From: Bryoerythrophyllum caledonicum
Taxonomy: Eukaryota > Streptophyta > Bryopsida > Pottiales > Pottiaceae
Direction of reading: 5' to 3'
Assembly (NCBI GenBank): GCA_963971425.1
Contig: OZ020517.1
Location: forward strand, 22,206,462-22,270,461
Length of the DNA: 64,000 nucleotides
Each line of letters opens with the position of its first letter. Position 1 is the stretch's first letter. A program made the position numbers and the translations under genes. Positions 1,590 through 50,189 of the stretch are shown in pieces. Below the pieces are notes generated by a model, which was given only the letters and a program-made list of their open reading frames with translations, did no database searches and was not told the origin of the DNA.

Positions 1590-3355
1590 CTATGTAGACA
1601 ACCTTGGTAGCACTTGTACAACATCCTAGAGAAGGAGTTAAAAACCTTAGTTTGCAATGAAGCATTGTAATTGGGTGAGCCACCGACCTTGCAATTTGTA
1701 TTGGAGACTTCAGAACGAATTGAGATCAATTTTGCTGAAAGAGAAGGCGGTCATGTGATTTCTAATATGTGAATAGAAGGTTCTTGAGAAGGTCAAGGTG
1801 GCCAAGGCAAGCGTTCCTTTCTATGCCACTGACAATGAGCCCTTGTATTTCAAGTGTGGCAAGCCCGTACATTTGTGGAAGGATTGCAAGGACGTCAAGA
1901 CTTTTGCACCTCAAGCTAGAAGTTTTTGCTCTGGTTGTGGTGCGAAGAGACATGCTGAGACCAACTATTGGAAGCTTTATCCTGAGTTGAAACCTTTCAG
2001 GAGTAAGGGAGCGAAAGTAGGAAGCAAGGAGAAAGAACCCAAGGCTACCGAAGGTGGAAAAGAAGAGTTGGAAGGCCAAGTTTGCAAAAATGGAGGCGAT
2101 GATTGCAAACGCCGCTTTAATAAACAATAAGCCTCATGTCACTCCTAGTTTACATATTGGAGGCAAGTTTAGGCTCGATGATGAAAAATTTGAAGATTAC
2201 ATGCTGAGTGGCATGACACTTGCTATCATGGATGGCTCACAAGAGGTTTACGCCCTTACATAAAGTCAGAGACCAATGACGAAAGAGGTTCTACGTGGAG
2301 TAAGCTCCACTTATGACCCTCAACATGGAAGGATCAACCAGCAAGCTCAGTTGAGAAAACCTTTCATGTTGGAGGAGATGGTGCCAACATCTTCTATGGT
2401 ACCTTGAATTTGACGGGGGCACCCACAACACACCGTACGGTTCGAATTGAAGAGCCAATGGATGCACTAGTTATCAAAGTGTCAAACGTGGTTTGTCAAA
2501 CTTCGTTGTTTCTTGCTAAACCGATGTTACAAAAAGGCTTCAGTCCGGCAATATTCTTGAAAATGGCAGCCACAATGTGTGAGTTGGGTAATTCCATGGG
2601 CGTCAATGCGTAGAAGACGAAAGTGATTGGAGAAGAGGCGAATAAGGGTCATGAGGAGAACGTGGAGCGTTGGAGAGGTTGCTTTCACTAGCCATGCATG
2701 TCAAAACCATGGCTACTAGACCTCCAATCAAGAGGTCATTCATTACACCTTGTGTGGTGGTGGTTGACAACTCTCAGGGAATTTTCCAACTTATTGGACC
2801 TAAGAAGAGGATGTTTGTACCGTGACATGTGCTTTTGGATTCATGAACCTAACCATTGATGCTAGGAGCATCTGCCATTGAGGGGTTGGGCTTGACTAGG
2901 GACACTTGAAGAAGTGTCTATGGACAATTAGCACGTCTATGGAGGAATGGTGCACGCTACAGGCATCACGGAATCGGATGTTGCAACTCAACAAAGATGA
3001 TGTTGAGGATGCAAGCTTCATGAAGGTGAAAGCTGTAATAGTCATAGAGGCCAAGTCATATGATGTCTTAGTGGGCTCAATAATGTTGTATCCCATGGGG
3101 TTCACCTTGGATTTTTCGGAGCAGACAATAAGCTATAGACCAGGATGGCAAGGGAACGATGGGCACAAGGCTCAACTGCGAGCTCGACTTGCCAAGTTCT
3201 TATTGATAATGTTGATGTGTTTGTCTTCTCAGGAGTTATGGACGTGAAACCACCATGGTTTCAGGTAGGTGTTGAGGATTTTTCTATGGCTACTCCTATA
3301 CTTAAAAAAGTGGATGCCCACGTGAGTCACACGAATGTTGGAGATCCGGAGAGAT
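1590..3355 (+). pseudogene. Element A gag-protease remnant
   Basis: Matches the element B gag-protease region over its length, with several frameshifts and stops. Two CCHC zinc-knuckle relics lie near 1848-1890 and 1926-1970; each has lost a Cys to Tyr (YFKCGK and ...NYWK where B has CFKCGK and ...SCWK), so nucleic-acid binding would be lost. The protease active site (DSG in B) reads D-S-stop near 2838-2845. The 3' part (from 3145) is open and runs into the methyltransferase without the TAA that separates these parts in B, showing that gag-protease and methyltransferase were ancestrally one frame. Confidence 0.85.
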
Positions 3356-4690
3356 ATCAACCCCAAATTGAATCAGCGTGGAACACCACCACTAAACTTC
3401 AGAGGGATGCTGAGCAAGTCATGAAACATGCTTGGCAACATTCAATGTTTCTACAAGTGGAAGAGGAGTCTGGAAGGAATAAAGATTGGGACCACCTCTG
3501 GAAACTTCTAGTCTTCCACCAATCACTCGAAGGCACTAGAGGAGGGTATTGTCTTGTTGGAGTTATTTGGAGGAATTGGAAGTGACTTAATGGCAGTGTT
3601 GCAAGCATGGATCAAGGTCAAACGCAACATTTATGTGGATGTTGATGAAGTAGCAAAGCATGTGGCCAAGTAGCATTCACGGCAATTGAAGACCCAATTT
3701 CCGGACTTGTTGGCCACTAGTGCCATCAAAAATTCCTTTTCCACCCTTGTCGGTGATATTGCCTTGCTTTCAGAAAATTTAGACATTCACCGTGTTGGCC
3801 ATGTGGACCTTGTCATTGTAGCTTGGCCCTATCAACGCATATCTATGGTTGGACATCAAAACGGGTTGAAAGATACTCGTTTTTTGCAATTTTATGATAT
3901 GATATGCGTGTTGCGTTTGCTTCAAACATCTTAGACACGACCATCAGATTACATTGTGGAGAATGTACCGGTGGTGAGTAGCTCCAGGTCGAGGACCTTG
4001 GAGGGTATGCACCGCATATACGAGACTTTGGGTTTGCTAGTGTTGCTAGATGCGGTTGCGGTGGGATCTCGAGCACATCGCTCGCGGCTGTGGTGGACAA
4101 GTATGGCACCTCAAGAGTGCTACAGTTTATTCTAGGTCGTATCAAACGGCCGGATGTCTATGTGAATGATATTTTGGATCCTCACAGGGCACCTTGGCGC
4201 GTTTACCATGACAACCAAGGACCTTTGGCGATGGTTAACGGCAAGTGATAACCACTTTTTGCCCACATTGTTTACTTTTGCTAGATCATATGTTTTTAAT
4301 GACAACGGCCCTCGCCTTGTTTGGAATTCTTTGTCTCAAGAAATGGAGGAGCCAAACACAGACGAGCAAAAGAGAGCCATGGACTTTGACACTGGCACCA
4401 CCAATCGACTAGCATTTCGGAGCAACAACGTCAATTTTTACTTTAGAATCAATGAACTTAAATTGCTTGACTCGGATTGTCTCTTTGGTGATTGTTGAAC
4501 AGAAGCGGTTAGTTTTAAGTTTGATCGGTTTCATGGGATTTTATGAGTTGCAGGCTGGTGGAGAACCATTTGTCTCTGTCAAGGTTACAATCAAAGTGGT
4601 TGAGGGCAAGAAGGCCTTGGCACCTCATCCATGGAACGTATAGGATATTAAAAATATTTTTGTGATGCCCAACGCTGAGGATTTTCACCA
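3356..4690 (+). pseudogene. Element A cytosine-5 DNA methyltransferase remnant
   Basis: Collinear with the intact domain of B at 35503-36852. Motif I is recognisable around 3560-3600 (LLELFGGIGS), and the motif VI region ENVPVV is intact at about 3958-3976. The catalytic PCQ of motif IV is changed to PYQ near 3824-3832, removing the nucleophilic Cys. Frameshifts and stops include a TAG near 3931 where B has CAG. The enzyme would be dead. Its presence in an old and a younger copy shows that the methyltransferase belongs to the family rather than to one chimeric insertion. Confidence 0.88.
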
Positions 4691-6341
4691 TGGAGTGGAG
4701 GATTAGAGCTAAAGTAGGGGATTGGCCCACTAGAGGATGGATTTGGAGGAAGTTGTGTAGAAAATGTTCATGGAAGAACACACAACTCACCAAATGAAAG
4801 AGATTGACACACTAAGCCAATCGGAAGGACTTGGAAGCATGATGGAGGAGAGAGATGATGAGCTTTCTCCACTTGGCATTCAATAGCAACCAAGGAAGGA
4901 AAATCCTACTCCAAAGGAATTGAAGGAGGCGGTGACCAAGAATACTTGGAAACCGCTAGTTTGTTTGGCGGATGGAGTAGTTGCGGTAGAGGAACATGAG
5001 TTCCTCAGAGAATACATGGATTGTTTTGCCTTTTGTCTAGAAGATCTTGGAGTGTTGAAGGGGCAAGAAGTACGTATCAACTTGACGGATAAAGCACCAA
5101 TATACCGCAAACCGTACAAGTATAGTGACGTAGAGCGGAAGAGGATTCGTCCTCGTACGGAAGACTTGGTGGATGTAAGGCTAGTGGAGTTGGCTCCACG
5201 GGATTGTGAGTACACATTGGTGACGGTTATGCCATCTGAGAAAGATATCTACGGTAATTGGACAAAGAAAAGGATGTATGAGGTACAGGAGGATTAATAA
5301 ATTCACCAAGTTAGATCGTTATGCCATGCCAACACCGGAGGAGAACTTTAAGGTTGTTGGTCATTGGAAAGTATTTAGTATGTTGGACTTGCGCTCTAGA
5401 TACCACCAGATTGGACTAAAAGAAGAAGACAAGGAGAAGACCACGTTCTCGGGCATTGACAAATATAGGAAGGACCGGTTGTTCCAATAGAAGTTCTTAC
5501 CATTTGAATTGAAGAATGCGCCTGCCAAATTTCAGAGGGTTATGGATCAAGTATTCTTGGGCTTGGACTTCGTGAGATGCTACAATGACGACATTTTTGT
5601 CTTTAGCAAGAAACAAAGGCAGCATAGGCTACACTTGACGAAAGTGTTTGTAAGATTGAGGTTCCACGGTTTGAAGTTGCACATTGGTAAGTACAAATTC
5701 TACTTTGATTGCATCGAGTCTTTAGGCCACATGATATACCCAAGTGGATTGGGTGTGGTAGCTAGAAAAATTGAAGTAGTGATGTCCATTCCTAGGCCAA
5801 GAGATCTTAGTAGGCTACGCGCATTCTTGGAATTTTGTATAATACAGTAGCTACTACAGAAAGTTTGTGAAGACTTTCAGTGCTATTGCAAAGCCATTGA
5901 CAATGTTGACAAGGAAAGATCAACCTTGGATCTCGGGAGGTAAGCAAGAGGCGGCCTTTCAAGAGTTGAAGGACCACTTGGCATCAACACCTATATTTGA
6001 AGGCCGATAGCAAGAAAAGCATATGACCTATATACCGACTATCCAAGCGCTTTGGGAATCGGCGCAATGTTGACGCAAATGGATGACAACAGGAAGAAGT
6101 TCATGATTGCATAAGTCAACCGGCCTAACAACATGGAGGCTCAATATAGCTCGTATGAAGGGGAATGTTTGGCCACCATATGGGCAATTGCTCATTTTTG
6201 TTGTTACCTTTATGATAATAAGTTTTTGTTGATTATAGATCATCAATTTTAAAATGGTTGATGGAATCCGACAGACTAACAAGGAAACTAACATGATGGC
6301 CCTTGATGTTGATGGAGTACGACTTCAAGGTTGTGCACAAA
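4691..6341 (+). pseudogene. Element A RT-RNase H remnant
   Basis: A short linker with stops is followed by the RT of a Ty3/gypsy polymerase: MCGDYRRINKF-like region (5270-5300, frameshifted), DLRSRYHQIGL near 5385, LKNAPAKFQ near 5510, and a catalytic YNDD (NIDD in B) near 5580. The RNase H region is recognisable to about 6335 (MEYDFKVVHK). In-frame TAG at 4887-4889 in the context CAA-TAG-CAA-CCA matches the same TAG in B, and the TAG ending the methyltransferase region (4705-4707) is also shared. Other stops are private to this copy. Confidence 0.87.
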
Positions 6342-6388
6342 GGGTGATAGTCGACTAAGGTGGTACGAATATACTGTCACAAACCGGT
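6342..6388 (+). repeat. Left terminal inverted repeat of the 13-kb transposon
   Basis: Starts GGGTGATAGT; 17 of the first 22 bases match the reverse complement of the right end at 19354. Weaker similarity continues for about 20 bases more, including ATACTGT. Confidence 0.82.
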
Positions 6389-8067
6389 TTTTTCAATGTC
6401 ACAACTTCTCCTTCGCGTCACATGCCCAATTTGCCTTGGATTTCAGATGGTGGTCTGCAAAATGTGATTCCTGACTTCCATGCCATCGCACACATCAAAA
6501 AATTTAACTAAACCGGACTACAGTTCAATGGGAAGAAGTATATTTGTAATTACTACATACTTGTCACAGTTTTTAAAAAGTTACAAATATACTTCTTCTG
6601 GGAGACCTGAAGTTCACAATTCTACAAAACTTTCAGTTAACATGCAAAACTGGTTCTTTTCAATCATTCCAATTGAAAATTATGATCGTCCACTTTAATT
6701 TCCTTGTAATAGCCAAAAAAAGGCTGATTTTTTAGAGCACTTATAATGGGGGTTAATGTAGGCTTTTAAAAAAAAAATTGGGGCTCTACACCCTACACAA
6801 ACTCTAATATTGACCCATTTCTTATTTGTTAAAAAACTTTGAAATTCCATCATTTATTTTAAAATTAAGGAAACGGTGTCCTGACTAAACGAACATACTG
6901 CAAAGTATATTTGGTATCTTAGCAACCTCCATAGTATCCCAATATACGACTGTTGTGTCAGAATCGTGCCAATAATCATTCGACACGTGTTGTCCTCCTG
7001 TCACTCCATATTTATCGGCGCCTTTCCCCAGAATCTGTACAGCACAACTCCCAATGGATGAAGGTGATGTGCAGCCGCCGGCCTGAAGTTCCCAGATCTG
7101 TGAACGTTGAGAACTTGAGTCGCCAATCTTTGTTCATTACTGCGTCAGAACTCATCAATGCGACTGTAGCTCAGAGATGTACTCGCTGTAACTGGTACAG
7201 GGTCGTCTTCTCCACTTTGCAGACCTTCGAGCTCTGTAGATTACAACCTCGCCGGGATCTGCATCGACGTCTTCTTCCAGTGCAAACATGTACAGGTTTA
7301 CACCATCTTCTTCTCCTACCTAGTGATAAAATTATTTCTAATAAGATATACCGAGTCCTTCATACTAACGTGGTTTTTTGCAATCTAAACAGTTTAGAGA
7401 ATCTTCGAAGAAGTTCGAGATCCAAGCGCCAATGTAGTACTTGGAATTGATCGAACTCTAGAAAACCGTAGGCGACAACATACCTTGACGGCTACAAGAA
7501 AGAGGGTTTTGCAGATATCTGGTCGACATATGCAAACCTAGTTCTTCAAGGTATGACTCTATATTGCATTATGCCATGTTTTGATAGATACAATGAGTGT
7601 GTGGAACTTAGCTGCAGATCCCCATTCCGAAATTTATCGTTGTTTTGAATATTGATAGCTATAATCGGGCATGCAGTCAGTTTGCAGTGCTCATGAGTAA
7701 ATAGAGACGTGTGTTTCTACAATAAACATGCTCTAAATCACTTGGTAAATGTAACTCTACCAAAACATTATGAGAACGACTGTGAGAAATTAAAGTCCAT
7801 ATTCCTGATCAATGACAAACCAGTCGTGAGTGACCGTAGCTCATATTGAACACTGTTTGGGGTAGCATAGTTGTTGCTCTACAGTTTGGGAAGTTCCTGC
7901 TTCATTGTTGGGTCTCTCTTTTCCTTTGCAACTGATGAATTTTTGTCTGGTATGGAACAATTAGGGATTCAGGTTAACTCTACTAGTGGAATCGATTGCA
8001 TTTTCAAGAGCTTGGATTCGTCTTTCTTGCGTGTGGACAAGGACCATCTTGTGCAATCAATACCTGC
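6389..8067. other. Left subterminal region of the TIR transposon, no confident gene
   Basis: Mixed AT-rich sequence with several open frames (for example 6953-7450) that show no recognisable domain. Possible 5' exons or promoter of the transposase gene may lie here, but splice phases could not be tied to the main exon. Confidence 0.4.
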
Positions 8068-8493
8068 AGTTGTGGGCTGCACTTGCGAGCCGAGGACCCG
8101 TGTGCAATTCAAGGAGAGGAGCCACACTACGACAGTGCCGATCGGGGTGCTTTGTGAAGGAAAATTTGAAGTTCATCATTGACAAATTGGAGATCATTTT
8201 GTCCTCCATTGACGCAAGTATGAGTTTGCTGAAGAAGCTGAATATCACTTCAGTAGACGACCCGGAGAGCGACGAGATCACCGTAAGTGTCACTCAGGTG
8301 CTAATCATGCCCTTTTCATGTGACAATCTGATGATACCTTTTCTTTTGATCTGCTCTGGTTTCTATACGTGTACTTTTTATGATGACGTCTTGAGACATT
8401 GATATTGTACAGATGCACTTTGAAGCCCATATATGGAGTTTTTAGGCCACTGAGAAGTTAGGCGCGTTTTCTGAGGAAGCTCCTGAAATCCCA
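8068..8493 (+). other. Possible upstream exons of the transposase gene
   Basis: Two segments look exon-like. The first, 8068-8283, follows cctgcag and ends at ACC before gtaagt; it encodes about 72 residues with an amphipathic stretch (KFIIDKLEIILSSIDASMSL). The second, 8412-8493, follows gtacag and ends before gtatct, with one in-frame TAG. Joining the second to the acceptor at 8660 does not give the frame of the main exon, so either an indel intervenes or these belong to a separate small transcript. Confidence 0.35.
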
Positions 8494-8661
8494 GGTATCT
8501 TCATGTGACTTTGTACAAACATTAAGTAGCCTGCATGTCTAAAAAAATATATCATTCCATTACATGTGTGTAAATGCTTCCAGCTTCACAGAATGTGGTT
8601 TTTGCATGTTCACGTTCAGGGACATGGTATTCACATACTTTTATTATGTTAGCTTTACAGG

Positions 8662-11600
8662 ATGGTTAGGAGGCGTACAGCTAGGCCTGAACTTAGTGGA
8701 CCATCGAATGAAGAGGTTGCTTTAGCTAAAGAGAAAGCAGCTGAACGTCAAAGACGTTGTAGAGCGAGAAAGAGGGATTTGGCGGAGCGGTCGCTACGTT
8801 TGGCTCTTGCCGGTGAGGACCTTCGTGGGGACAGTTCTAGACGTAGGGATGTAAGTAGAGTCTCTGCACGGATTTCTGAATTCATCTTGAAGGAATTCGA
8901 AGTTGCTGGCGAGGGTTTAGGGTTCCGACAAGCTGTACTGGTGACAGATTTGTCCTCCAAAATGATAGTTCCCCATTTACCCAAATGCTACCGTGATCAG
9001 GATGATGCGAAAACTAGCCATGCCATCATTCAATCCTATTGGAATGAATTGCAGCTCCTCAGAAACCCATGCTCTAGAGAAAAATTAGTGAGGAGGAAGG
9101 CACTATTCGATGCTGCTATAAATACAGATGGCACAGGAGTACGTGCGATATGGAGGGTCCTTCGTACAAAAACACGGAACATAGTCGCAGCGCTGCATCG
9201 ACGGCGAAGTCTACAATCCTCTGGATCGTCGATTTTTAAGCTTGTTGAACGGAGAAAGAGGGCTGGATTGTCGATTCAAACAAGGGAGCTTGTGAAGGAG
9301 TAGTGGTCTACGGAGACTCGAGTTAGTCCCAATAAGAAGGATGTCAGGAGAAAACGGATAGAGAAGAGGGTGTACGAAAGTCATCCAACGCACTTGCTGC
9401 ATGAAAGTTAGGTACTTCACCGCACCCTCTTTGGTTGTATGTGAATAATTTCGTGTGGTCCCATTTGTAATTCGACCACTATCATAGTATCAAACTTGGT
9501 GAGTATCGTCAACATCCCGTTCTTGTCGTCGTTAAACACTCCAGTAGTCCTTTGATACATATTCCTTGTATCTTTCTATACCCTAGGTTATAATTATATA
9601 GTATTTTTTTGTGCGTAATTAACAACAATAGTTCAATGGAATACATGGGTGGTCCTCATTGATACTCCTGTAGACTCAAATGTGCTAAACTTGTCCGTGT
9701 ACATACTCCTTGAGAGTGTGTGATACACTTGTGAAGTCACATCTCATCACCTGGAGTATGTTGTTATACCGACGTGGTCCTCTGCAATAGGCTTCGGTTA
9801 TTCCACAACACACTCTTCATGTAGAGTTATAGACACTTTGTGAATACTATTCAGGTTATTCGATGTCCCCACATAGTCTATGATCATACTTGTGACACTG
9901 GACCATGGTATCCTAGAACATAGTTTACGTTGCTAATATACTATAATATACTATGTACAAGTACTTGTAACACTTATCTACTCATTGTGAGTATAAAAAC
10001 CACAAGGTGTATACTCACATGTCTAAGTCAGGATGTACTCTTTTAGTTTATTGACATACCTTTGTAGTCAGATGTTATACTTCTATAGTCGTTGTACATA
10101 CTCATAAGGTATATTTTGCACATTGTTGACATGCAATTTGGGCACTATCTTTGGCAGGCGTCCTTGTACGAGAGGTTCAAGGTTGCACATCCTAATGAGC
10201 CCATCTCCATGCAAGCCTTTGAGTGAATGCGGCCTTACTTCGTAAAAAAATGCAATGACCGCAACGTATGCTGCTGTAAATACCACATTGAGCTAGAAAT
10301 GCTTCGGCAGGCCTTATCGTTAGTCAGAGAGGCCACACGAGGATTCCACGCCGAGATTTCTTGCGATTGCGCATGCATTGTGTGTCACAATGTAGATTCT
10401 GATGGATGTTCAGCACATTTGAATAAGTTTGATGGGGTTACAAAACTGTGGGAGGTAGTGGTGTGCCCGAAGCCGAACACAAAGGAGTTCCATCGCTTGG
10501 AGTGCTTGATGGGAACATGTACTAGATGTGGAGGACATACGCTTCCTATCTGTCCGCGTGAGTCAATGCCATCAACAGTCCAATTGAAGTGGCGGCGTTT
10601 TGACTCGGAGGTGGTGGGAGTGAACGAGAACGGGAAGCCACGGAAACGCCTTGGAGAGGTTTACATGGAGACATCTCCAGCTCAGTTCTTTGAGTACCTT
10701 GTGCCCCGGCTGCACAAGTTCATAACCCATAATTTTGTTGCTAGGTGGCAGGATGTACAATGCCGACTTAGCATGGATGATTTGCCTACTGATGACATAC
10801 TATCTCATGTTGATTTTGCCGAAAACTATACCTTTGAGATCCAGAATGAGACACAATTCATGCATTGGCAATCTACGCAAATTATCGTCACGTGCCTAAT
10901 ATTTAGTGCACATTACTTATCGTCATGTGCCTAATATTGATGGCGTAGTAAAAGAGATCCATTTCTATATTTCAGATGATAGAACCCATGATACCTTGTT
11001 CGTGCAGCATTGTTTCTTGAGGCACTAGATTTGGCTGAAGTCTCGTGGTATACAGGTGAACCAACATTGGGTGTGGAGCGACGGGTGCGCCGGACAATTC
11101 AAAGGTGCAAGGTCTATGTACTTTGTTAGTAGGTATGCAGGGCTTACAGAAGGCTGTCTTATGAAATGGAATTACTTTGGAACGGGACATGGGAAGGGGG
11201 AGTGGGATGGCGCAGGCGCTGTTATCAAGAGAGCTTTGCGGACTGAACAACTCCACAATCCGTGCCGGAAGCTGCAGGATGCAAGAGACGCGGTGAATTT
11301 CTTGGAAGAAAAGATGGCGGGTTTGGTGGAAACCTCGGTTGTCAACGGCAGAATAGTATCTCATAGATACTTCCACTACATTGGCGTGGACACCGTAGAC
11401 CGGCGACAACCGTACGGATGCCACACAATTCAAGGGTCTAGAAAGCTACATTCAATTCGGGGAGTTTCCGCAACCGATCCGACATTGCTAATGGTGCGAA
11501 ACCTCTCATGTTATTGGTGCCACTGTTTGGATGGAGATTGGCCATCTTGTGAAAAGATGTCGCATGTGAAGGCATGGACAGTCATCAAGCTTGGTCCCAC

Positions 11601-12066
11601 AGATGTGACATTTGCACGAGACGTTATGCAACAGGGGCAGGTGGACAAAGGAGATGAAGATCCATGGGACTATGCTATTGACGAAAGTCTGGGAGATTTG
11701 GTGGAAATTGGGGACAATTTTGCAATTCCGGCGGATGACGGAAACGAGGAGGGCGCCGATTTCTATGTGCTTCAGTGCCAACGTCGAAAAGAAGTCGTTC
11801 GTGAAAAGTTCACTTGCAGGTGGGGAGGTGAATTTGACGTGGGGGACGACATACTTGTGGGGACTTATTATCAGAAATGGGGCAATAGTCCTAACTCTTA
11901 TGTTTTCCTTCAAAATAGTGTAGTTGCTCACATTGATGCAGATTTAGTTCTTGCTTGTAAGTTCTCAATGTTGCCGGCGACACACAGGGTCAAGGGAGGT
12001 GACCCTGTCTACCAACTTCCAGACGAATCCATAGATGTCATAAGAACGGCTCTGGAAGGTTTTTGA
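8662..12066 (+). pseudogene. DDE-like transposase gene of the 13-kb TIR transposon (broken)
   Basis: Exon 8662-9411 encodes an Arg-rich basic N-terminus (RRRTARPE, RQRRCRARKRD) and ends at a GT donor; the next exon starts at 10158 in phase and contains ERF, NDRNVCCCKYH and several Cys pairs (CTRC), a likely zinc-binding region. The C-terminal part (about 10919-12066) has EIHFYISDD, HWVWSDGCAGQFK and FGTGHGKGEWDGAG. These are the blocks of a widespread eukaryotic transposase-like family I remember from uncharacterised animal proteins; the Asp residues are likely catalytic by inference. Breaks: TAG at 9301, TAG at 9409 (last codon of the exon), TGA at 10224, TAG at 11026, and a 35-bp direct duplication near 10882-10951 with a frame change. 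Stop TGA at 12064. Non-functional as it stands. Confidence 0.72.
9412..10157 (+). other. Intron of the transposase gene, rich in GTATA/AGTATA words
   Basis: AT-rich, bounded by GT (9412) and AG (10157). It holds repeated gtatac, agtata and tatact words, as do other non-coding blocks of this transposon. Confidence 0.6.
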
Positions 12067-12795
12067 TTATTCCAAACACATGTTTGGGTTAGTTCTTTTG
12101 ATCTGCTCTGGTTTCTATACGTGTAGGAACCACAAGTTATGTCAGTTATGCAATTAGCGAATCCAAGTGTAGCTTATTCTAGTATATTCTAGACTGTGCA
12201 ACAATACTTTATATCCTGTGTTTCATATGTTCGCCCCATGTATGTGCTATATGTTTATTCTTTAGGTAAGATTCATACACCTATAGTATGTTTTGATACA
12301 TTGACAGTATAGGTACTACCTCTATTATTTAGTCAGTATACTTGATAGTATATTTGATATACTTATTGATCATTCCACAGCTCTGGTATACTATAGACAT
12401 AAAATGTATAATTGAAGGTAATTGTTCTTTCCCATGATAACAAAGTCCTTTCTACTTGGTAAGACATTTGTCCTTGCTTTACATATTAGCTACATTTCCA
12501 AAATTCGATATCAGTAGGTGAAGAAAATATTGTGCACATGAAGTTTTGGAAATGGAAAGGGCGCCGTATTTACTGTATTAACATTTTGTGCATGTACACC
12601 ACCATGTTCTATCTCGTACAATTCATTACCCGTTGGCTATGCAAGCAAGAAATGAACAAGTACCTCGAGGGCAACTTAAAACATCCCTAAGCACACAGTA
12701 CACCATAGCATATAGTCACTGTCATACAAATACAGGGGAAAAGGCTATATGCAATGGCAGTAGCTTTCAAACAACACCGAGCTGCATTAAATTGG
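12067..12795. other. Spacer between the two convergent genes of the TIR transposon
   Basis: AT-rich, no recognised coding signal. Dense in agtata/tatact words near 12170-12420. Must hold the 3' ends of both transcripts. Confidence 0.55.
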
Positions 12796-15700
12796 TCACT
12801 TTTTCTTCTGCTGCCAACTCCTTCGGTCACGACAGTCCTTGCTTCCACATATGCAACGAAAGCTTGGAACTTCGTTAGTAGTGTCTTCAAAATCAATACC
12901 ATAGTCCCAGGTGAGCTCCTCCCCGGCCACCACATTCCTACTAGTGAAGAATACCACCTGGTTTTAAACCACAGTTGAGTATGTTAATTTCAAGTACACA
13001 TTCAACATTCTTATAGAAGGAGGAATATTGGACCATTCATATTGTGGAAGATACTTACATGATAGTATCCTGTCAAATGCGTCTCAATATCAACTGGAAT
13101 CTGTAACAGATTTGCATCATGGCATCTACGTTCCACATTCAGACCACTTAGATTGGATTTTAATACATCTTCTCCAACAAACATCTTCTAGACAATGTTG
13201 CCTAAATCAAAATATAAAATTTGACTAACCTATGATTCAGAAATCTTGAGACGTTTCCTTCTCTGGTCGCATCAATTGAGAGACACTCAGCATCGCTGAG
13301 CTCATCTTCTAATCTCCAATTTGCATCTTAATTAAGGGCATACTTACCATGGGAGCGCATGCGCGTATCCAAGTTCTCGCTAGATAAAACCTCTCCTAGA
13401 AATTCGAAGACAAACGCCCCTATAGGTAAATGTTCCAATGTCCGTATGCCCCACTCCTTGTCGTTGTTGACCCAATAAACCTGTGAAAACGTACAACTTA
13501 AACAAGAAACGTTCTATTGCATGAAACGAGCGAAAGCCAAAAAGGAAAATCAGGAAAAAAACTTATACAAAAAACCAGCAAGGAACAAAAAATGTAGCAA
13601 CGAACACATACCTAGAGTTGTCGTGTTACTCCGTTCTGCACAACACGGTTAGCACAAAGGACATCGCAATGACACCCAGGCCCACATTCCTTTAAAAAAG
13701 TCCTAGTTATGTGGCCCATACATCTCCCCTTCACGGCATTTGAACAACCTACACTCTGGCAATATTTGTATAAGTCCGTATCTCGTCCCAATGTCTCCCT
13801 AAGAGCCTGCAAAGAATCCACATCATGAAAGATATGACACTTCGTTTTACAAGTAGGGAGCTAAAATTAAATTTTTGACACTCTAATACTAATGTTGATG
13901 CTGGAAATAAGAGCCATACCGTTTCGATGTAGTACTTGTGAAGTACGCTCCCTCCAGTATAAGGAGCACAGTCTGTTGCATAGAAAGCACAGTCGCATAC
14001 ATTTCTCCGGGATACTCCACACGCATATTTGCAGCCACAACAACCTTTCCCTTCTGCTACTGTTAGGTCCAGATCTACACACACAACTCCAACGAGTGAG
14101 TTTTGTAAAATGTAGTCAAAACCGTCCGGTCCCAAGCATGGGTCTTCCATGACAACCACGCTTATGGGAGTCCTTTCAGCTCCTTTGGATAAATCATACG
14201 ACTTTCGTGGTAGCCGAGCATCCTGCAACCAAAAAGACAAATCTGCATCACAATGGCAAAAACATGACTTGCCTTCTATACATACATGATCAATAACAAT
14301 GAAATTACCAAGCCACATCTATACGTAAAGCCGACAATGAAGGTGAGTACTTCCTATAATACAATATTGTATATTACAAAAAAATATATAGTGTAAAATA
14401 TACTGAGATAGAGTATATTGCACCACTTAAGGTACTACTGCATTTCATTAGAATACTACAGCCCACTCAGGTTTGTCAACCTTAGCACCATTAGAATATT
14501 TGTAGTGTGTAATAACATATACAAAAGCCTGACTCGATGTGGCCCATTCTAGAGGACTGCTATCGCAGAAAACTAACATACTCAAAGTTCTATGTATGGT
14601 GACTCAACGTCTCCATACATAACACCATACCAAAAATTCAAAAGTCGCCCCACTACTAGCGTATATACAAACGTACCCGTGCAATCCACCGGCCACAAGA
14701 ATGAGGATATGCACATCTCGCATGATTCATGAAGTACCTACACCAGGTAAATCTCGAAACTTCAAATTCACTACTATTTCCTACATGATCTCTTTACCTT
14801 CCCACCTTTCGGGTCGCCAACCTCATTGTCCACTATATCTGCAGAACCTACTTGGTCGACCTTCTTCCTCTTTGCCGCCTTCATCTTCCCTGTAGATACC
14901 TCACCTATTTCTTCGGTAGGTCCTTCGCGTCGTGTTTTGATTTTGTCCTTCCCCTTACCCCTCGTCTGTGCTCCAGCGTTGCTAGTGTCGATCATGGCAG
15001 GGGAAGCAACCTTCCCTCTAACAATACCTTTCTTCACCTTCTTTGACTTCAACTCTGCAATTCTCATTTGATACTCAGCAAGCAAAGCTGCCTCCTCCAA
15101 AACACCGTCATCTATGTCCTTCCCCTCTATGTCACTCTCAGGACCTAAAGCTTCCAATGTTACAACCCACGAGGTTTGTCAATACATGTGGATACCACTC
15201 CAAGACTGAACACTACCCGAATGAGAGGCACATCGTACCTTCTTTGTTGTATGCTTGCTCGGTTGGGGGATGCATAGGTAGGCTGCACATCAGCAGAGGT
15301 TGAGAGTTTGACGCCTCCTTCACATGTGATGGAAGTGCCTCCAAGGATGAGACTGGGTCCTTGGCCGGTGAAAGTCCCACCACGTTGGGCCGTGAAACTA
15401 GTGGTTCTGCGCAAGCTTCCAATGCGTTCTTTGGCATGCTCAAGGGCTTCTCCAGGGCTGCTGAGTATAAGACTCTCCTCGGTGGGGTAGCAAAGTCACT
15501 CTTCTCTATGCCAAGGCCTGAAATCTTGGGGAACTTCTCAGGGCTAGTTACAATGCACTCAGCCGGAATACCATCTTTTCCCGCAGAATGACGAGAGTCA
15601 TCAATTGTTGAGCTCAATTTCGCGTGGCTAGTCTCCCCTACACTGTACGTGCAGGTGGTGGTGGAGTTAGGACTATGAAATACATCTGAAGACCCTGCAA

Positions 15701-18060
15701 TGACGACAACAACTAGACAACTATGTTAGCCACAGAAGTGCAATGAACTGAAGCTTGGAACATAGCTTTCTGCATGTCTAGTACCCCAATATACAAAGAC
15801 ATAGTATGAACTATCACAGAATAGGATATATTATACTACTACCCAACCAACTAGTATTGTACTAGAGTAAGATACACTAAATTGAATACTGCAGAGTATT
15901 TATTATTTTTTATTTGAGTATATGGAAGTGTCTGGTGAAGCATAAGAGGCTACTTCATACACATTGAAACAATTTTGAATACCCATACCCAAAAAAAAAC
16001 ACCTGGTCAACTAGTCCTTGAGACTGCATATAGTATCAACTATATACTATGCAGTATATCATAGTATAGGTGACCGTACAAAGTTTCATTCAATAAAAAA
16101 TAAGACACAATGAAGCACTACTACGTGGTGTTCTAAGACAGTACACTAAGTCTATAGAAGGGGATAAAATACCTCACAAATAGACAAGTGCATACTACGC
16201 AATATACTTAAGGAACCTAAGCAGAATTATAAACAAAACCACGAACTAAAGAGGGAGTGAATGAAGGATATGAAACACACTTGAGACACATGTAAGACTC
16301 ACACGCACTGCATACGAATAGGATAACACACACAAGGGTGTCATGTACTATACCTTGGGCTACCACAAACTTCACACCAGAAACTAATATATTGTGTCAT
16401 CTACAGCACATTATACGCGACACAAACAAAAAATATAGGTGAACAAGTGTACCTTGGGCATTGACTACCAAATACAAATGAAAGGAAACAAGAGAAGGGT
16501 GACATGAAAGAAAGAGTTACCAATTGTATGGCAGTTCTTCTTTGGTGCTATGGTCCTTGCTGAAATCGCCAACACTCGACTCATGCCACAATCCAAGCTT
16601 TCTGACTGCACCTGAAGGTCATCAGGCAACTCTCCATATCCGTTGCTCTTGTACCAATCGGGGTGCACCATACCGCAATCTTGTGATGCACACCTGGAAT
16701 TTGACCTAAACCAAACCCGAGCGCACCATGGATGATAGACATGTAGGCAACTACAGACATGCATGTCATTGTGAGGAAATGACAACTCACAAACCGAGCA
16801 TGTGCGAGACCGAAGTGTAGTCCATCCCTCACCCTCAGCCTCCTCGAGGTATACCATGGGATGAGGGAAAACTGATAGTCCGTTGTAACCTGCCTTTAAC
16901 GCCGCAGCGCACTTCACCAAGTCTTTGGCCTGCCTGCCCAGCATATCTCCACGCCAAGTCAACCTTCCTATCTGGACTCCCTTGCACTCGTAATCAGCCT
17001 GTAGTATGACAAGCTTGTCTGAAGCCTCCCGATGCATGTCATCATAAAAGTCTAGGTGAACTTGTAGGCTTGAAATCCGACTGTCATCCGTGCATTCCTC
17101 CACTCGCTTCCTTGCAACAGCCCGTGATGCCTCCATAGTGTCAACTAACTGCCTCTGAGTACCCATCTGATGCACATGTTGAAGGAACTCCTTCTTCACG
17201 ATCTCCAGCTCCTTCTTGCCAGCCTCGATCTCCAGCCTCATAAGCGCTAAAACATCCTGCACTTCCCCCTTCTTCTTCTCCGTCCACAAGGAGCTGTGCG
17301 GGGCCTTCATGTCCATGCCCGTAGATGGATTAGTGCCCTCCATCTTCACCACCACTTCCCCGTCTAAATAGCTCCCGAGCTCATCCTCTGCAACGACTTC
17401 AGCGAATGTCTTCCCAAGAATCCGAGCCTTCTCTTTCACAAAACCTACCATTTTCTTCCGCCAGGCTGAGCGCTGATTAGTGTTGGTTACAGTGGCAAAA
17501 CGTGCCCATTCAACCTCAACATCCATCACAACCTCTGCTACGACCGCAACAACGAAGTCCTTGCCTATCAGCTTCGTGCTAGGCACCACAGTTTTTTTAT
17601 AACAAATACAATAGTATTTTTCTATTGCCTTTGTAATCCTAGCATCAGAGACCTTCCTAAAAGAGTACCCGGATTTGCCCGCTCGACGAGGACCAAAGAT
17701 CTGAGCAAGATCTAACTCACTCACATCATGCATTTCATGGTGCTTGTGTGGATTCAGCCCACCGGCATGTATATTGTAATGGTCCCGAAAAACTTCGTAG
17801 TTAATCGCACGAGGAGGGGCACCCCTGAGCATCATCCCTATCTTGGCATCGATGTCCATGAGTGCGGCTTCCCTCTCCTCCACAGCAGCGACGAATTCGA
17901 CGACTTCGGCGTCCTTCTCCACGTCGTTCTTGGCATCATCATCGCCGTCAGAGTCATCCTCCGAAATCCGGTCATCATTCCTCGTGATGGAGGCCTCTCT
18001 CCTGGTAGCCCCCCGAAGGACCCTCTTCTCTTGCCTTCCCATGTTGTCCACAGAAACACC
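12796..18060 (-). CDS. SUVR-like SET-domain histone methyltransferase encoded by the TIR transposon
   Basis: Nine exons on the minus strand, each with GT-AG borders: 18060-16521, 15694-15239, 15150-14798, 14222-13920, 13806-13612, 13480-13348, 13326-13230, 13125-13059, 12957-12796. Their phases join to 1,102 codons ending in TGA. The first exon has acidic and coiled-coil-like stretches, then a RING/PHD-like Cys-His cluster near 16810-16670 (CSVCELS, CSCLHVYHPWC). The last six exons form a Su(var)3-9 type module: Cys-rich pre-SET (KGCCGCKYACG to CGPGCHCDVLCANR), SET (EWGIRTLEHLPIGAFVFEF, REGNVSRFLNHRCHDAN, ELTWDYG) and post-SET CICGSKDC. Family role: lysine methylation of histone H3, usually K9. 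No SRA domain seen, so SUVR rather than SUVH. One in-frame TAG is the last codon of exon 13806-13612, where relatives have Gln. The true N-terminus is not fixed; an ATG lies near 18041 and upstream exons are possible. Confidence 0.85.
14223..14797 (-). other. Intron between the linker exon and the pre-SET exon
   Basis: Bounded by GT at 14797 and AG at 14223. Phase 0 on both sides. AT-rich with several agtata/tatact words near 14350-14470; no further exon is needed to keep the frame. Confidence 0.65.
15695..16520 (-). other. Intron of the SET-domain gene with AGTATA-rich core
   Basis: Bounded by GT after 16521 and AG before 15694; the codon split G/GG is restored across it. The centre (15780-16100) is dense in tatact/agtata words (atatactatgcagtatatcatagtata-like runs). 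Confidence 0.65.
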
Positions 18061-18359
18061 CTGAAACATGACCACCAATAAATATGTTAGATCTTAGTAA
18101 AATGAACACGTTTACTCACGACAAGCACATCTACAGCACCTCCATACACATGTTTTTCCCATGTGAAACTGTCCAAGCATGTCTGAAGCAATATTTCGTT
18201 CACCAAAAAAGTAGAATCCGGCGCTACGCCTACTCACAGGGAACACTAAACCTATTAACAGGTATTCGCTAATGGGCACTGGACCAGCTCTCACATATAC
18301 ATTCGGATCACATCTAAGATGTGCTATTAAATTTTTTTAAAAAATTGGGCGTCAACACT

Positions 18360-18905
18360 TACAGCGGTGGTGTCTTCAGTAGGGAGCAAGAGTTCGTTGT
18401 CACCTCTTGATCTCAGGTGGCAGCTACAGTTCAACCTCTGGCTTCAGCGGCGACCTCATCACCGTCAACTCTATGATCATCGAGCACAGACCCCTACTGT
18501 GCGGCTGAATACAGAAGGGGGTTCGTGGCTCCCAATCGCGCTAGCAAACAGCTCCACCGAGTAAGTATATCTTACCAGGTAATTACTACTTGGCGCTAGA
18601 CTACGGACATCACATAAACACTCGATCTCACAACTAATATGAGGTACAAAAACAAAAAAAACCAAAAAACTTGGGCACGTATACTTACAGCGGTGGTGTA
18701 CTCAGCTTTGGCTGCAAGAGTTGGCTCCCAGATGTGATCTGCCGCGGCAGCTACCGTTCAACCCCCCGCTTCCTCCGCGACCTCATCACCGTGAAGTCTG
18801 GTTGTCATCAAGCAGAAACCCCTGTTGTGCGGCTGAATGCACAAAGGAGGTACTGTACATGCAATTCGCGCGCACAAACAGCCTCCGGCCACGAAACAAC
18901 TCACG
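18360..18905 (-). repeat. Direct duplication upstream of the SET-domain gene
   Basis: Segments 18360-18565 and 18686-18905 are similar: both start (+ strand) acagcggtggtgt, contain gcgacctcatcaccgt and tgcggctgaat, and on the minus strand both end in CACCACCGCT followed by a GTAAGT donor. They look like two copies of a 5' exon plus flank, so the SET gene may have alternative first exons. The lower copy can splice in phase to the exon at 18060. Confidence 0.6.
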
Positions 18906-19303
18906 TATGTGTGGCGAGGCGACCAATCCAACGCGCTGAGAATCTACGTTCATCCTAAACCCTGAATGCTGCATGTCTCTAACACAAACCTCTCTACTCA
19001 CGCACGTCGTGAAGCTCATAGATTGCGTAGCATACAACAGCACAAGCTCCCTAAATTTTTGTGTACATACTGAAAAAAGAGTTGCAAAACTGGCCAGCTG
19101 AACGAACCCCTGAAAACGAGCGGCGGCATGGAATTAAAGGCTGACCCATGTGGCTACGCGCCACTTGTTGAATTCAATGTGCCGTCGTGTCTTTGGTATC
19201 AAATCAGAGAATAGATTCTACGGCCACGATTGAACTCCTGGATTCAAATAGACGGCTGTCATTGATTCCCATTTTTGCAAAGGACCCCAATTCAAATATA
19301 CTA
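18906..19303. other. Right subterminal region of the TIR transposon
   Basis: No recognised gene. Probably the promoter side of the SET-domain gene. Confidence 0.4.
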
Positions 19304-19354
19304 CACAGTATTTTTTTTTGCCCATTTTGTACCCCCCTTAGCGTACTTTCACCC
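19304..19354 (-). repeat. Right terminal inverted repeat of the 13-kb transposon
   Basis: Reads GGGTGAAAGTACGCTAAGG on the minus strand starting at 19354. An A-run (positions about 19311-19320 on that strand) separates the outer match from the inner ATACTGT word. Confidence 0.82.
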
Positions 19355-19836
19355 CAGAGCGAGATTGGTAAACATAGATACCAACGGCCTTTGCCGCAAT
19401 CCAATTCCAAACAAAGCAAATGCTACAAGCGCTCGGTAGCATAGTGAGGATGGGGCCTATTCATTGTCAGGTTGACATTATTTGGCCTTTCTAAGTGTGT
19501 TAGCGATGTGTAGAGATGACACTGAAGAAGTTATTGTGGCCACAATAAATGAGGATGGCAGTGAAGAATCCAGGGGCGCCAAATATAATTTTGAGGACAC
19601 AAACGTGATGTAGTTTTTGAAGAATGAAGGAGTGCCTACGTGGTCAGCCAAACGGTTTGTGTGGAAGAGAACTTACATTTTGAAAGTGTGGGCGGATCGC
19701 ACCCAAAAGATTGTGTCGTCTCCATTAGAGAGTGTGAAGTTTATTAGAGGACACGCATGAAGACTTTGGGCACTTGCTCCAGCTTCACTATTGGTTGCAA
19801 GGAATGCAGTCACAAATTCAAGATTTGATGGCCCGG
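19355..19836 (+). pseudogene. Element A, part 2: RNase H-integrase linker and zinc-binding N-terminus
   Basis: Resumes the homology to element B at the linker (B positions about 33867 downward). The integrase HHCC region is recognisable near 19758-19836 (HEDFGHL, HYWL) but ends where the next insertion begins, inside the Cys pair. Several indels and a TAG near 19612. Confidence 0.85.
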
Positions 19837-23510: not shown

Positions 23511-24659
23511 TGCATGGTGTATAACTGTGTGTAAGCGTCTTTTAATGCTCCAATGCCACAATTGCAACCATTATCAATTATGAGCTTGAAATAGAAGTTG
23601 AACTTGGACTTTACACGTCCATTGCCAGCCACATATCGACACAAAAAGTATGTGTTAGAGATCATTGAACACTTCTCGAAGTAGATTGAGTTGATAGCAT
23701 TGCCTGACAAATTCATTGAAAGAACCGCTTATTCTTTCCTTGATCGCATTCTGAGTTGCTTCGGAGCTCCAGCGAAAGTGCTCACAGACTAAGGACATAA
23801 CTTCTTGTGTGAGTTTTAAACATTGTGTGAGCAATCAATGATTGATCATCACACTACTTCAAGAGATCACCCCAAAGTGGATGGATTGGCAAAGGAAATG
23901 GTGCAAACCATCAGGAAGGGGCCTCGGAAGTATAGTTTATAGAAGGGACATCAACATGATTGGGACTTGCAATTACCGTGGGTAGCCATGGGCTTCGAGT
24001 TTAGCAAACAACCATCCTTGGCATCTTTTTCTCCTTACGTTTTGTCGTTTTGAAGGTATCTAGTATTACTAAAGACCATTGAGGCAGATACTGATATTGT
24101 GTTGGCTAATATGGAAAATCTAGACACGTGGGCTCATGTGTGTGAGCAACGGCTGAAGTTGTACAAGCGGATGATGCCAATGGCATTGGAGAACCTCTCA
24201 AGTGCACAACATCAAGATACATTGCACTATTCTATCACACGAAAGGAAGCTATCAATCGCACGTGCGACGTTTTATTCCTGGAGTCTATATGTATTTACT
24301 GCAAGCAACGCCCACGGCCCACCACCTTGGATGTGACAGCAAGACGGATAATATTGCGAATTCCTAAGATAAAAGATATGGGTGTGTTACTGTTTGAAGG
24401 TTGTGATGGCAAATTGTGGAAGGATTGCACGCATGACTGCGCACCTTGCCACTTGCTACACATTGACAAGAGTGTACACCTTGGACTTTCTAAAAACTCT
24501 GCTAGATTACAGTGTCGCTTATATGGTAATGCCAAACGGGCAGCCATAATGGTCATTTGTGACTTGTGTTCTAAGGGTTGCCATGTAAAATGTCTAATTC
24601 TACCTCTTTTAGAGGTCTCAGTGGGTCAATGGTTGTATCCACAATGCTTAGCACATTGA
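23511..24659 (+). pseudogene. Element A, part 3: integrase core and PHD finger remnant
   Basis: Matches B through the integrase catalytic core and C-terminal part, with stops. Past 24099 one frame stays open to the shared terminal TGA at 24657 and covers the region corresponding to VLANMDNP... in B. The C-terminal PHD finger is recognisable (LQCRLYGNAKRAA, ICDLCSKGCHVKC), but one Cys is Tyr (CRLY for CRLC) and another pair is YPQC for CPEC, so zinc binding is compromised. At two sites where B has TGA, A has Gly codons (near 23761 and 24381), so those stops in B are private. Confidence 0.85.
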
Positions 24660-31122: not shown

Positions 31123-31948
31123 TGTCGTGCACAACCGCATCGTGCCAAGATAACATCGTGCTAATCAGGTGAGAACGCACAGTCAGAGACAACTCGAGAG
31201 TAACGGTGACATAACCACCACCGTTACCTCTATAAAACAATAATACAATGCACACTTACACACTTTCAGCAATCCAGACTTGGGAAAAAAAGAAATAAAT
31301 GACCCATGACCTCGTACACCAAGAAGTAGTAAGCGGTCTCCAAGTACCCCTTTACTAATAAATAAGTAGAAAATACTCATAAACTACACATAGTCAAGCC
31401 AATGCCATTCTTAAAGAATGGTCGCATAATAACAATGAAGTTCAAGAAGTGCACGCACGCACGCACTCTCTCACTCCATCACGTGGGAGACTCAACTTGA
31501 GAAAGATGAGTCTCCCCACACTACACGAGGAGGTCATTTGGACTCCAAGTCCCAAATGAGGTATCAAAAGACACCACCAAGGCCCTAAAAGTCAAAGAAC
31601 ACTAATACTAACTCTAATTAACAACTAAAGCTAGCATCTAGGATTTCCTTGGGCCATTTAACCTCCTAGTTGGTTTACAAAGCGTAAACCAACCTCCACA
31701 AACCTTCCAACGCGTCGAACCTGACAGCTGTCATGCACAACCGCATCGTGCCAAGATAACATCGTGCTAATCAGGTGAGAACGCACAGTCAGAGACAACT
31801 CGAGAGTAACGGTGACATAACCACCACCGTTACCTCTATAAAACAATAATACAATGCACACTTACACACTTTCAGCAATCCAGACTTGGGAAAAAAAGAA
31901 ATAAATGACCCATGACCTCGTACACCAAGAAGTAGTAAGCGGTCTCCA
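31123..31948 (-). repeat. 3' LTR of element B
   Basis: On the minus strand it starts TGGAGACC (31948) after a purine tract and ends CACGACA (31123). It contains two 220-bp direct repeats, 31948-31729 and 31342-31123, differing at one base (CATGACA versus CACGACA), around a middle block (31724-31357) that is also present at the 5' side of the element (42430-42059). The second 220-bp copy is preceded by its own agtaaagggg. Confidence 0.8.
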
Positions 31949-31973
31949 AGTACCCCTTTACTCGCCCCCTTCG
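31949..31973 (-). other. Polypurine tract of element B
   Basis: Minus strand reads gaagggggcgagtaaagggg immediately before the 3' LTR. Element A has gaagggggcaagtaaagggg in the same place. Such a tract primes plus-strand DNA synthesis. Confidence 0.75.
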
Positions 31974-32193
31974 CCCGTGCTGAAGCCCCTTTCACACCGG
32001 CGAACCACACAGTTTACATGTAAACTGAATGATAACCGCGAATGAAAACCTCTCAAAACCATAGAATCACTGTAATCCACATGAAAAGGCGCTAAAAGAC
32101 TTAACAAACAAAGGGTAGGCCGGGTGCAAGTAGAGCCCCATCGTTAATCGCCTCTAACATATTTTTAATGCTAGACTTTGTCCACTCAGACCC
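31974..32193 (-). other. 3' untranslated segment between pol stop and polypurine tract of B
   Basis: Collinear with 24660-24880 in A. No open frame of note. Confidence 0.6.
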
Positions 32194-32469
32194 TCAACGT
32201 GCTAAACACTCAGGACAAGACCATTGATCCACTGGTACTTCCAACAGAGGTGGAGTTAAGCATTCTAAATGCCACCCCGTAGAACATAAGTCACAAATAA
32301 CCATAGTGGCTGCCCTTTTGGCACTACCACACAACCGACAACGTAATCCAGCAGAGATGTGAGAGAGACCAGGGTGTATTGTCCCATCAACATGTGGCAA
32401 GTGACAAGGTGCACAATTACATGTGTGATCCTTCCACTTCTTGCCATCACGACCCTCCAACACTAACAC
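32194..32469 (-). CDS. Element B C-terminal PHD finger segment
   Basis: In frame with the integrase upstream but separated from it by a TGA at 32470-32472 (element A has a Gly codon there). It holds a Cys/His-rich lead (CNCAPCHLPH) and then a canonical PHD finger in Cys4-His-Cys3 order: CRLC, ICDLC, WHLEC, CPEC, with the Trp two residues before the final Cys pair. PHD fingers commonly read histone H3 tails, so this domain could guide integration, in the way chromodomains do in chromoviruses; that is inference. The TGA stop at 32194 is conserved in A. Confidence 0.88.
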   Translation of the reverse strand: MLVLEGRDGKKWKDHTCNCAPCHLPHVDGTIHPGLSHISAGLRCRLCGSAKRAATMVICDLCSTGWHLECLTPPLLEVPVDQWSCPECLAR

Positions 32470-33081
32470 TCATGAGTCCTTCACCTCACGAACTCTCAAG
32501 ATTACCCTTCTTGCTGTCACATCCAAGGTGGTGGGCGCTGCTTGCTGCAAATACACATAGTCTCCAGGTGTGAAACGCCGCACCTGCGGTCGATAACCAC
32601 CTCCTCGTATTGTAGCATAGCGCAACGTATCCCGATGTTGAGCAATGGAGAGGTTCTCCAATGCCATAGGCATCACCCTTTTGAACAACTCTGCACGTTG
32701 CTCACACACTTGAGCCCACGTGTCTGGATTGTCCATGTTAGCCAACACGGTGTCAGCATCTGCTTGAATGGCCTTCGGTAAAACCGGGTGCCTTCCAAAT
32801 AATAGATAGTAAGGTGAAAAAGACGCCAAGGATGCCTGTTTGCTGAACCGATAGCCCATTGCTATCCATGGTAGCTGTAAATCCCAATCCTGGTGATGTC
32901 CTTTCTTCAAGCTGTACTTCCGGAGCCCCCTCTTGACGGTTTGCACCATGCGCTCCGCCAATCCATCTGTTTTGGGGTAATCCCTCGAAGTAGTGCGATG
33001 ATCAATCATCGCTTGCTCACACAACGTCTGAAACTCACCCAAGAATTCTCTGCCTTGGTCTGTAAGTACCTCTGCTGGAGC
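32470..33081 (-). CDS. Element B integrase core, C-terminal part
   Basis: Continues the frame after the TGA at 33082. TDQGREF carries the second catalytic Asp and GLAERMVQTVKRGLR the catalytic Glu of the integrase DD35E triad, followed by the typical Ty3/gypsy LPWIAMGYRFS and PYYLLFGRHP motifs, a linker, and FTPGDYVYLQ of the C-terminal SH3-like region. No chromodomain follows; the PHD finger takes that place. Confidence 0.9.
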   Translation of the reverse strand, partial: APAEVLTDQGREFLGEFQTLCEQAMIDHRTTSRDYPKTDGLAERMVQTVKRGLRKYSLKKGHHQDWDLQLPWIAMGYRFSKQASLASFSPYYLLFGRHPVLPKAIQADADTVLANMDNPDTWAQVCEQRAELFKRVMPMALENLSIAQHRDTLRYATIRGGGYRPQVRRFTPGDYVYLQQAAPTTLDVTARRVILRVREVKDS

Positions 33082-35319: not shown

Positions 35320-35502
35320 CTATTGAATCCCCTGTGAAGGAGACTCCCCTCCTTCCTCCTCAATAACACTCCCAAGTCCTTCCAATTGACCCAATTTGTC
35401 AATTTCTTCCATGTGAAGAGCTGTGTGTTCTTCCAAGAAGATCTTCTCCACAACATCCTCCAAATCCATCCTCTGGTGAGCCAATCTGCTCCCTTCACTC
35501 TA
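35320..35502 (-). other. Inter-stop linker between methyltransferase and RT of B, with TAG readthrough-like context
   Basis: A 59-codon in-frame segment lies between TAG 35500-35502 and TAG 35320-35322 and encodes a charged helical stretch (KIFLEEHTALHMEEIDKLG). Both TAGs are at the same places in element A (4705 and 4887). The second sits in CAA-TAG-CAA-CCA, which fits the UAG-CARYYA consensus known for stop-codon readthrough in plant RNA viruses. Confidence 0.7.

Positions 35503-47348: not shown

Positions 47349-50189
<2,841 letters not shown>

Follow-up and report, generated by a model that had tools for sequence, protein, structure and literature searches.

A DNA transposon of about 13.0 kb, which carries a gene with a SET domain beside its transposase gene, occupies positions 6342 to 19354 of a 64,000-nucleotide stretch of the moss Bryoerythrophyllum caledonicum (contig OZ020517.1, positions 22,206,462 to 22,270,461; G000:C4:22206462-22270461), the whole of which is referred to below as the window. 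The presented results indicate, at a probability of about 0.97, that the SET gene is a resident gene of a family of DDE transposons, stands tail-to-tail with the transposase gene, has spread to about a hundred places and has been kept by purifying selection. A sequence-only reading of the window had proposed a terminal inverted repeat (TIR) transposon with this cargo, and the two genes indeed recur together: other copies, with distinct target duplications, enclose the SET gene in the same ends, and in the 437 Mb of genome searched SET is matched within 15 kb of 103 of the 118 matches listed for the transposase core, tail-to-tail without exception. The transposase list was obtained from 117 of 415 candidates scored and the list for the pre-SET exon (115 rows) from 142 of 142; rows are matches, and a few loci yield two. 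Of the 95 transposase rows with at least 58% identity, 85 lie no more than 15 kb from a pre-SET row, tail-to-tail in 85 of 85 cases, with median gaps of 1.5–1.8 kb by identity class, and about one linked row would be expected by chance from these two lists. For the 23 transposase rows at 48–51% identity, the pre-SET query gave no link (0 of 23). A SET-less sister clade made up of these rows was considered and dropped, because a moss SUVR query (72 of 614 candidates scored, giving 126 rows, of which 54 were used for linkage) placed SET tail-to-tail within 15 kb of 18 of the 23, and at 24 kb of a 19th. The identities of SET and transposase correlate over the 85 pairs (r 0.91). No listed transposase row lies within 15 kb of 29 of the 115 pre-SET rows.

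The evidence for selection comes from the comparison of subfamilies. In L044, the sole member read of a second subfamily, pre-SET, SET and post-SET are uninterrupted, the exon lengths (303, 195, 251 and 67) are the same as in the subfamily of the window copy, and an open transposase end lies tail-to-tail beside the SET gene, with 76% identity over 111 residues. When L044 was compared with the majority sequence of the window subfamily, the ratio of nonsynonymous to synonymous divergence (dN/dS) was 0.19 for the SET exons (dN 0.239, dS 1.259, 322 codons), a rough estimate because this dS is near saturation, and 0.11 for the transposase end (dS 1.60, 111 codons). The SET gene is considered to have been under purifying selection because of the value of 0.19 between subfamilies, and both subfamilies retain the motifs NHRC and ELTWDYG. 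In L045, a representative of a third group, pre-SET is followed by the beginning of SET, where the sequence breaks off; 2.6 kb showed no transposase. Within the window subfamily there is no clear selection signal among copies. The singletons are near neutral (omega 0.85 on a context-aware expectation), the variants shared by at least two copies give an omega of 0.56 over the whole SET gene, and three more diverged copies give 0.62–0.81.

The identity of the element itself was established from its ends and its insertion site. The left TIR, GGGTGATAGTCGACTAAGGTGGTAC..., lies at 6342–6370 (plus strand) and the right one, in reverse complement GGGTGAAAGTACGCTAAGG..., at 19326–19354 (minus strand). 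The matching inverted ends noticed earlier are found at 6342 and 19354, where the left end, GGGTGATAGTCGACTAAGG..., pairs with the right one read in reverse complement. GGGTGATAGTCGACTAAGG also opens 9 of the 11 left ends compared, c9 and c10 deviating at the second base. The transposon interrupts a Ty3 element as exactly as had been claimed, since the joined flanks, minus one 4-bp copy, align without gaps over the site to a Ty3 paralogue at 32–39 kb of the window (about 75% identity). The left copy of the target duplication is CAAA (6338–6341), and the right copy is CAGA (19355–19358), one base off. The inverted ends, target duplication and copies at several places that characterize class II elements, as well as an RNase H-type DDE/D transposase core, are all present, and 6342–19354 is a TIR DNA transposon.

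Other copies were collected with the left 421 bases as the query (56 rows at 40 places; 40 of 467 candidates scored), and DNA past the match was taken for 23 of the 40 places, window included; ten of these places, besides the window, were taken at 20 kb. The element is present end to end and uninterrupted at three other places (c2, c5 and c6, the last without a match to the last two bases) with 95.9–96.8% identity. It is end to end and interrupted in c7, c8 and c12, of which c12 also has an internal gap, whereas c3 is interrupted and partial within its 20-kb stretch and c4 is rearranged. Copies c9 and c10 both stop at 12683 and probably represent one duplicated place, because their flank is common to both. 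The pairwise divergence between the eight aligned copies amounts to 2.4–5.9%. Exact 4-bp duplications were observed at c5 (TGGC), c6 (ATCC), c7 (ATCT) and c12 (ATAG), three of four bases match at the window copy and at c8, and none was found at c2. Two non-autonomous derivatives of about 0.86 kb, L041 and L042, retain 415 bases from the left side of the element and ~100 from the right, and they have the duplications TAAC/TAAC (exact) and GGGA/AGGA (three of four bases). Altogether, among nine insertions with both ends (seven long and two short, the rearranged c4 excluded), five have an exact 4-bp duplication, three match at three of four bases and one has none. Five of six diverged left-end places had no element sequence in the 4 kb taken about 5.5 kb from the left end, and two of those five are the derivatives of ~0.86 kb; further left-end places may be such derivatives too. 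An origin of the element from two unrelated nested elements is disfavoured by the same junction in every full copy and by the uniform order of the two genes in the 103 linked rows.

The two convergent genes seen before, one of them with transposase-like blocks, are a DDE-type transposase gene on the plus strand and the SET gene on the minus strand. The model of the latter comprises eight coding exons from 18060 to 12796 and 1,108 codons, with AG/GT borders at 7 of 7 internal junctions in the window copy. The length of about 1,100 codons proposed from the sequence thus holds, but eight coding exons were found instead of nine; an extra 5' leader exon is possible. Exon 1 (16521–18060) encodes an acidic start, a long coiled coil and a RING-like zinc finger (PF17120 at 2.2e-5 and PF13639 at 3e-4, both below the curated cut-off). 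Its 507 residues found zero homologues at E 0.001 among 7,997 candidates scored, and its single-sequence fold, at pLDDT 42.7, was of poor quality apart from a long helical pair predicted with confidence at residues 255–383. A nucleoporin-domain match of this exon (PF23664, 5.1e-4, below the cut-off) was dismissed as chance. Exon 2 (15239–15694) and exon 3 (14798–15150), a basic linker, were delimited by splice sites and frame, as were exon 5 (13612–13806), which contains the end of pre-SET, and exon 7 (13059–13125). Exon 4 (13920–14222) encodes pre-SET, matched by PF05033 at 3.2e-5 on the unspliced frame, below the curated cut-off, and SUVR proteins cover about 95% of a query starting with this exon. 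Exon 6 (13230–13480) contains the SET domain to NHR (PF00856), and exon 8 (12796–12957), placed by splice sites, frame and a structure-sequence match, contains ELTWDYG and post-SET. Searched against Pfam, the spliced protein matched PF00856 at 1.6e-16 and a weak RING, and the pre-SET model was unmatched at E 0.01. Upstream of the gene, at 18339–18882 (minus strand), there are degenerate repeats of about 0.2–0.3 kb, 70–75% alike, recognized because the segment at 18.3–18.9 kb has secondary matches at an offset position of other copies.

The domains and motifs that had been described as intact are present in the window copy, but the frame through them is not intact. The last codon of exon 5 (13612–13614, codon 949) reads TAG and codon 1000 in exon 6 (13328–13330) reads TAA, and because these two stop codons interrupt its frame, the SET gene of the window is a pseudogene. 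Among the seven other aligned copies, codon 949 is glutamine in five, histidine in one and out of frame in one, codon 1000 is leucine in 7 of 7, and a stop at codon 1041 is common to c3 and c12. The window transposase is broken as well. Its exon 1 (8661–9411, plus strand; splice borders are inferred) has a stop at 9301–9303 and an end codon that reads stop, and exon 2 (10158–12066, plus strand), which encodes the RNase H-type catalytic core, has a stop at 10224–10226 and loses the frame near 10880. The frames of both exons were followed over eight copies, and the core was recognized from 48 homologues and from the fold of one of them, P0006. In this homologue D174, D257 and D299 are candidates for the catalytic DDD residues. 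A Foldseek search with P0006 gave nothing at E 0.001, and the transposase had no convincing match in Pfam or NCBIfam.

The earlier suggestion that a SUVR gene may have been captured agrees with the position of the SET sequences. With a query from pre-SET to post-SET, the 100 best-listed matches were plant proteins of SUVR type together with unnamed proteins that share this make-up, with 34–43% identity where the query was mostly covered, and EHMT1 was matched at 6.9e-31 among solved structures. The WIYLD domain (PF10440) is present in 92 of these 100 homologues and unmatched at E 0.01 in the 1,108-residue element protein. Trees of 33 and 19 proteins group the SETs of the element in one clade (support 100/100) inside plant SUVR1/2/4, adjacent to the single moss sequence (97/99 and 93/97). 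The stem of this clade measures 2.8 to 3.5 changes per column, and its exact place is unsure because the stems are long. Pre-SET, SET, post-SET and the position of the clade, with a weak match to the pre-SET model, support the derivation of the element gene from a SUVR1/2/4-type gene. The trees include two of the several SET groups in the genome, with the host SUVR-like locus left out, and support for a single capture is limited to these two groups. The separate host locus, C7:9597247-9599376, is 79–86% identical to the SUVR of the moss Ceratodon purpureus (P0061) over four rows, some with an internal TAG, and a second, less similar SUVR-like locus is located at C7:12934656-12936130 (65% and 41%). 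About 13 further places (C6:1397726, C4:4442404, C11:18468594, C1:62258161 and about nine more) match the SET of the moss SUVR at 44–53% identity along all or part of residues 390–582. They have long, seemingly intronless open frames (up to 348), and, judged by eye, all are farther than 15 kb from the listed transposase rows.

These findings can be joined in the following account. An ancestral transposon would have acquired a gene of SUVR1/2/4 type, or only the SET part of one, and the captured sequence would have been joined to the new coiled-coil and RING-like front. The SET protein would methylate lysine 9 of histone H3 (H3K9) on chromatin, most likely on the element's own copies, and such self-directed marking might hold the expression and copy number of the family at a level tolerated by the host. 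SUVR4 writes H3K9me2/me3 (PMC7218100), and the family's essential residues have as counterparts an H and a C in SUVR2 (PMC4260354; this and the other articles are cited here from excerpts). The latter are taken to be residues of the NHRC motif, which the element SET keeps, and the protein has probably retained catalytic activity. C-to-T singletons occur at 0.252 of CG, 0.294 of CHG and 0.091 of CHH sites, whereas A-to-G or T-to-C singletons stand at 0.025. The copies seem to have lain in CG- and CHG-methylated chromatin, because C-to-T singletons are high at both kinds of site, a scar that such methylation would be expected to leave. The self-regulation step is tentative, and that a whole lineage of plant DNA transposons may have kept its own H3K9 methyltransferase since before the subfamily split, as an element-encoded, histone-based chromatin switch on its own copies, is a more speculative proposal still. 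As an overall explanation, a resident, SUVR-derived gene that is active and self-regulating is nevertheless preferred, with moderate confidence.

Several observations speak against parts of this interpretation, in addition to the near-saturated synonymous divergence of the SET exons. The queries with pre-SET and moss SUVR left 15 of the 118 transposase rows without a SET match, although one of them, C3:24084693 (L033), does contain later SET exons. The whole SET frame is found in 0 of the 8 aligned window-subfamily copies, every one of them being interrupted by one or more stops or indels within the exons covered, and the shared variants in the pre-SET and SET part give an omega of 1.6, calculated from only 15 variants. 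CG and CHG scars are common in plant transposons generally, and C to A or G also peaks at CHG (CG 0.061, CHG 0.118, CHH 0.041). Finally, Arabidopsis SUVR2 has residues corresponding to the catalytic ones, yet it showed no activity (PMC4260354), and therefore the motifs do not prove activity.

The selection and the motifs are best fitted by an active, self-directed silencer, with a decoy or an insertion guide as possible other roles. As a decoy, the WIYLD-less, SUVR-derived protein would join or compete with host SUVR1/2/4 complexes and thereby weaken the repression of the element. Such anti-silencing would suit the contrast in WIYLD between the element protein and its homologues, the part played by SUVR2 in silencing without catalysis (PMC4260354) and the existence of anti-silencing factors encoded by transposons, known from VANDAL (PMC12730594). 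It is nonetheless considered unlikely, as the dN/dS of 0.19 and the catalytic motifs kept in two subfamilies fit an active enzyme better and the copies bear strong CG and CHG scars. An equally low probability is given to a protein that guides integration, by marking or binding heterochromatin, or that silences rival elements or host genes. The window copy does sit inside another transposon, other DNA interrupts 5 of the 10 copies taken at 20 kb, and the RING-like and coiled-coil front could bind putative partners; guidance is a candidate role.

A functionless piece of a host SUVR gene that hitch-hikes in the transposon would explain why the eight aligned window-subfamily copies are decayed and their singletons near neutral. 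However, a Pack-type passenger is a captured piece without selection, which does not agree with the dN/dS between subfamilies. The identical exon lengths and the linkage of 103 of 118 listed rows in one orientation also contradict passive carriage, and separate captures from conserved host genes are contradicted by the 100/100 clade of both subfamilies; this explanation is very improbable. The probability that the SET gene is a host locus with chance inverted ends and no transposon is negligible. Copies that run from end to end, and whose flanks and target duplications differ, exclude it, and the host has its SUVR-like locus elsewhere, at C7:9597247-9599376, which also disposes of the unique host locus that the sequence-only reading had named as a refutation.

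The surroundings of the transposon in the window contain further elements. The Ty3 retrotransposon at 32470–38727 (minus strand) has a stretch of C5 cytosine DNA methyltransferase (PF00145, 1.6e-14) between gag and reverse transcriptase, and in this it resembles KnitGypsy-Dnmt3 of Klebsormidium (PMC5890265). In the older Ty3 copy that hosts the SET transposon (~1777–6341 and from 19355), PF00145 was matched at 0.0022, below the cut-off. Both Ty3 copies have a PHD-finger-like stretch after the integrase region, at 24054–24659 (plus strand; PF00628, 1e-4, just below the cut-off) and at ~31600–32480 (minus strand; by eye in translation). The region 46000–52000 is GC-rich (~60%) and has long low-complexity frames and no clear gene, and a 448-codon open frame at 61321–62667 (minus strand) had no Pfam match at E 0.01.

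Whether mobile elements turn the silencing enzymes of their hosts to their own advantage is a question better known from anti-silencing proteins. In the present case, a plant transposon lineage has a histone methyltransferase of repressive type as a lasting gene; purifying selection on this gene was measured between subfamilies, and a separate host SUVR-like locus is available for comparison. Moreover, mosses are tractable in the laboratory and could show whether a transposon profits from writing heterochromatin.

The statement that no plant DNA transposon family with a SET cargo had been described holds for plants within the open-licence PMC papers searched (Repbase reports and most subscription papers lie outside that scope), but oomycete precedents exist (PMC12730594; PMC4067079). 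SET cargo in transposons is thus known from oomycetes, and the plant case is new within the literature searched. HarbingerS and MuDR families of Phytophthora carry a SET gene (Kojima and Jurka, 2014, as cited in PMC12730594) and resemble the present element as DNA transposons with a SET histone methyltransferase gene. A 3-bp duplication is reported for related Harbinger families in the excerpts of PMC12730594, which do not state it for HarbingerS itself, whereas the element has 4 bp. The Pfam search found no transposase match in the element that would indicate a Harbinger-type enzyme, HarbingerS being compared by description only. The oomycete elements are of Harbinger or MuDR type, whereas a plant host, 4-bp duplications, a transposase without a Pfam family, an intron-bearing SUVR-type SET and a RING-like front are found here. 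A further case is Proto-Helentron-Pi, in which Pi presumably stands for Phytophthora infestans. This relative of Helentron likewise has a SET open reading frame within a mobile element, but it is a rolling-circle element, and its SET is short, intronless and like yeast Clr4 (PMC4067079). The Sola superfamily has 4-bp target duplications, as the present element does, and a DDD-type transposase, is reported from the moss Physcomitrella and includes elements of more than 15 kb; the likeness is by description only, and the excerpts of PMC10741241, from which these features are taken, mention no SET cargo for Sola. Epigenetic enzymes have also been captured by the fungal DNA transposons with TET/JBP (PMC12730594) and by KnitGypsy-Dnmt3 (PMC5890265), but these act on DNA cytosine and not on histones. 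The element SET shares pre-SET, SET, post-SET, NHRC, ELTWDYG and the clade with plant SUVR1/2/4, and differs from them in an identity of about 40%, the unmatched WIYLD, the new front end, the many copies and the mobility. SETMAR also unites SET and transposase, but as a single domesticated host fusion protein, whereas the moss element is a transposon with a separate SET gene.

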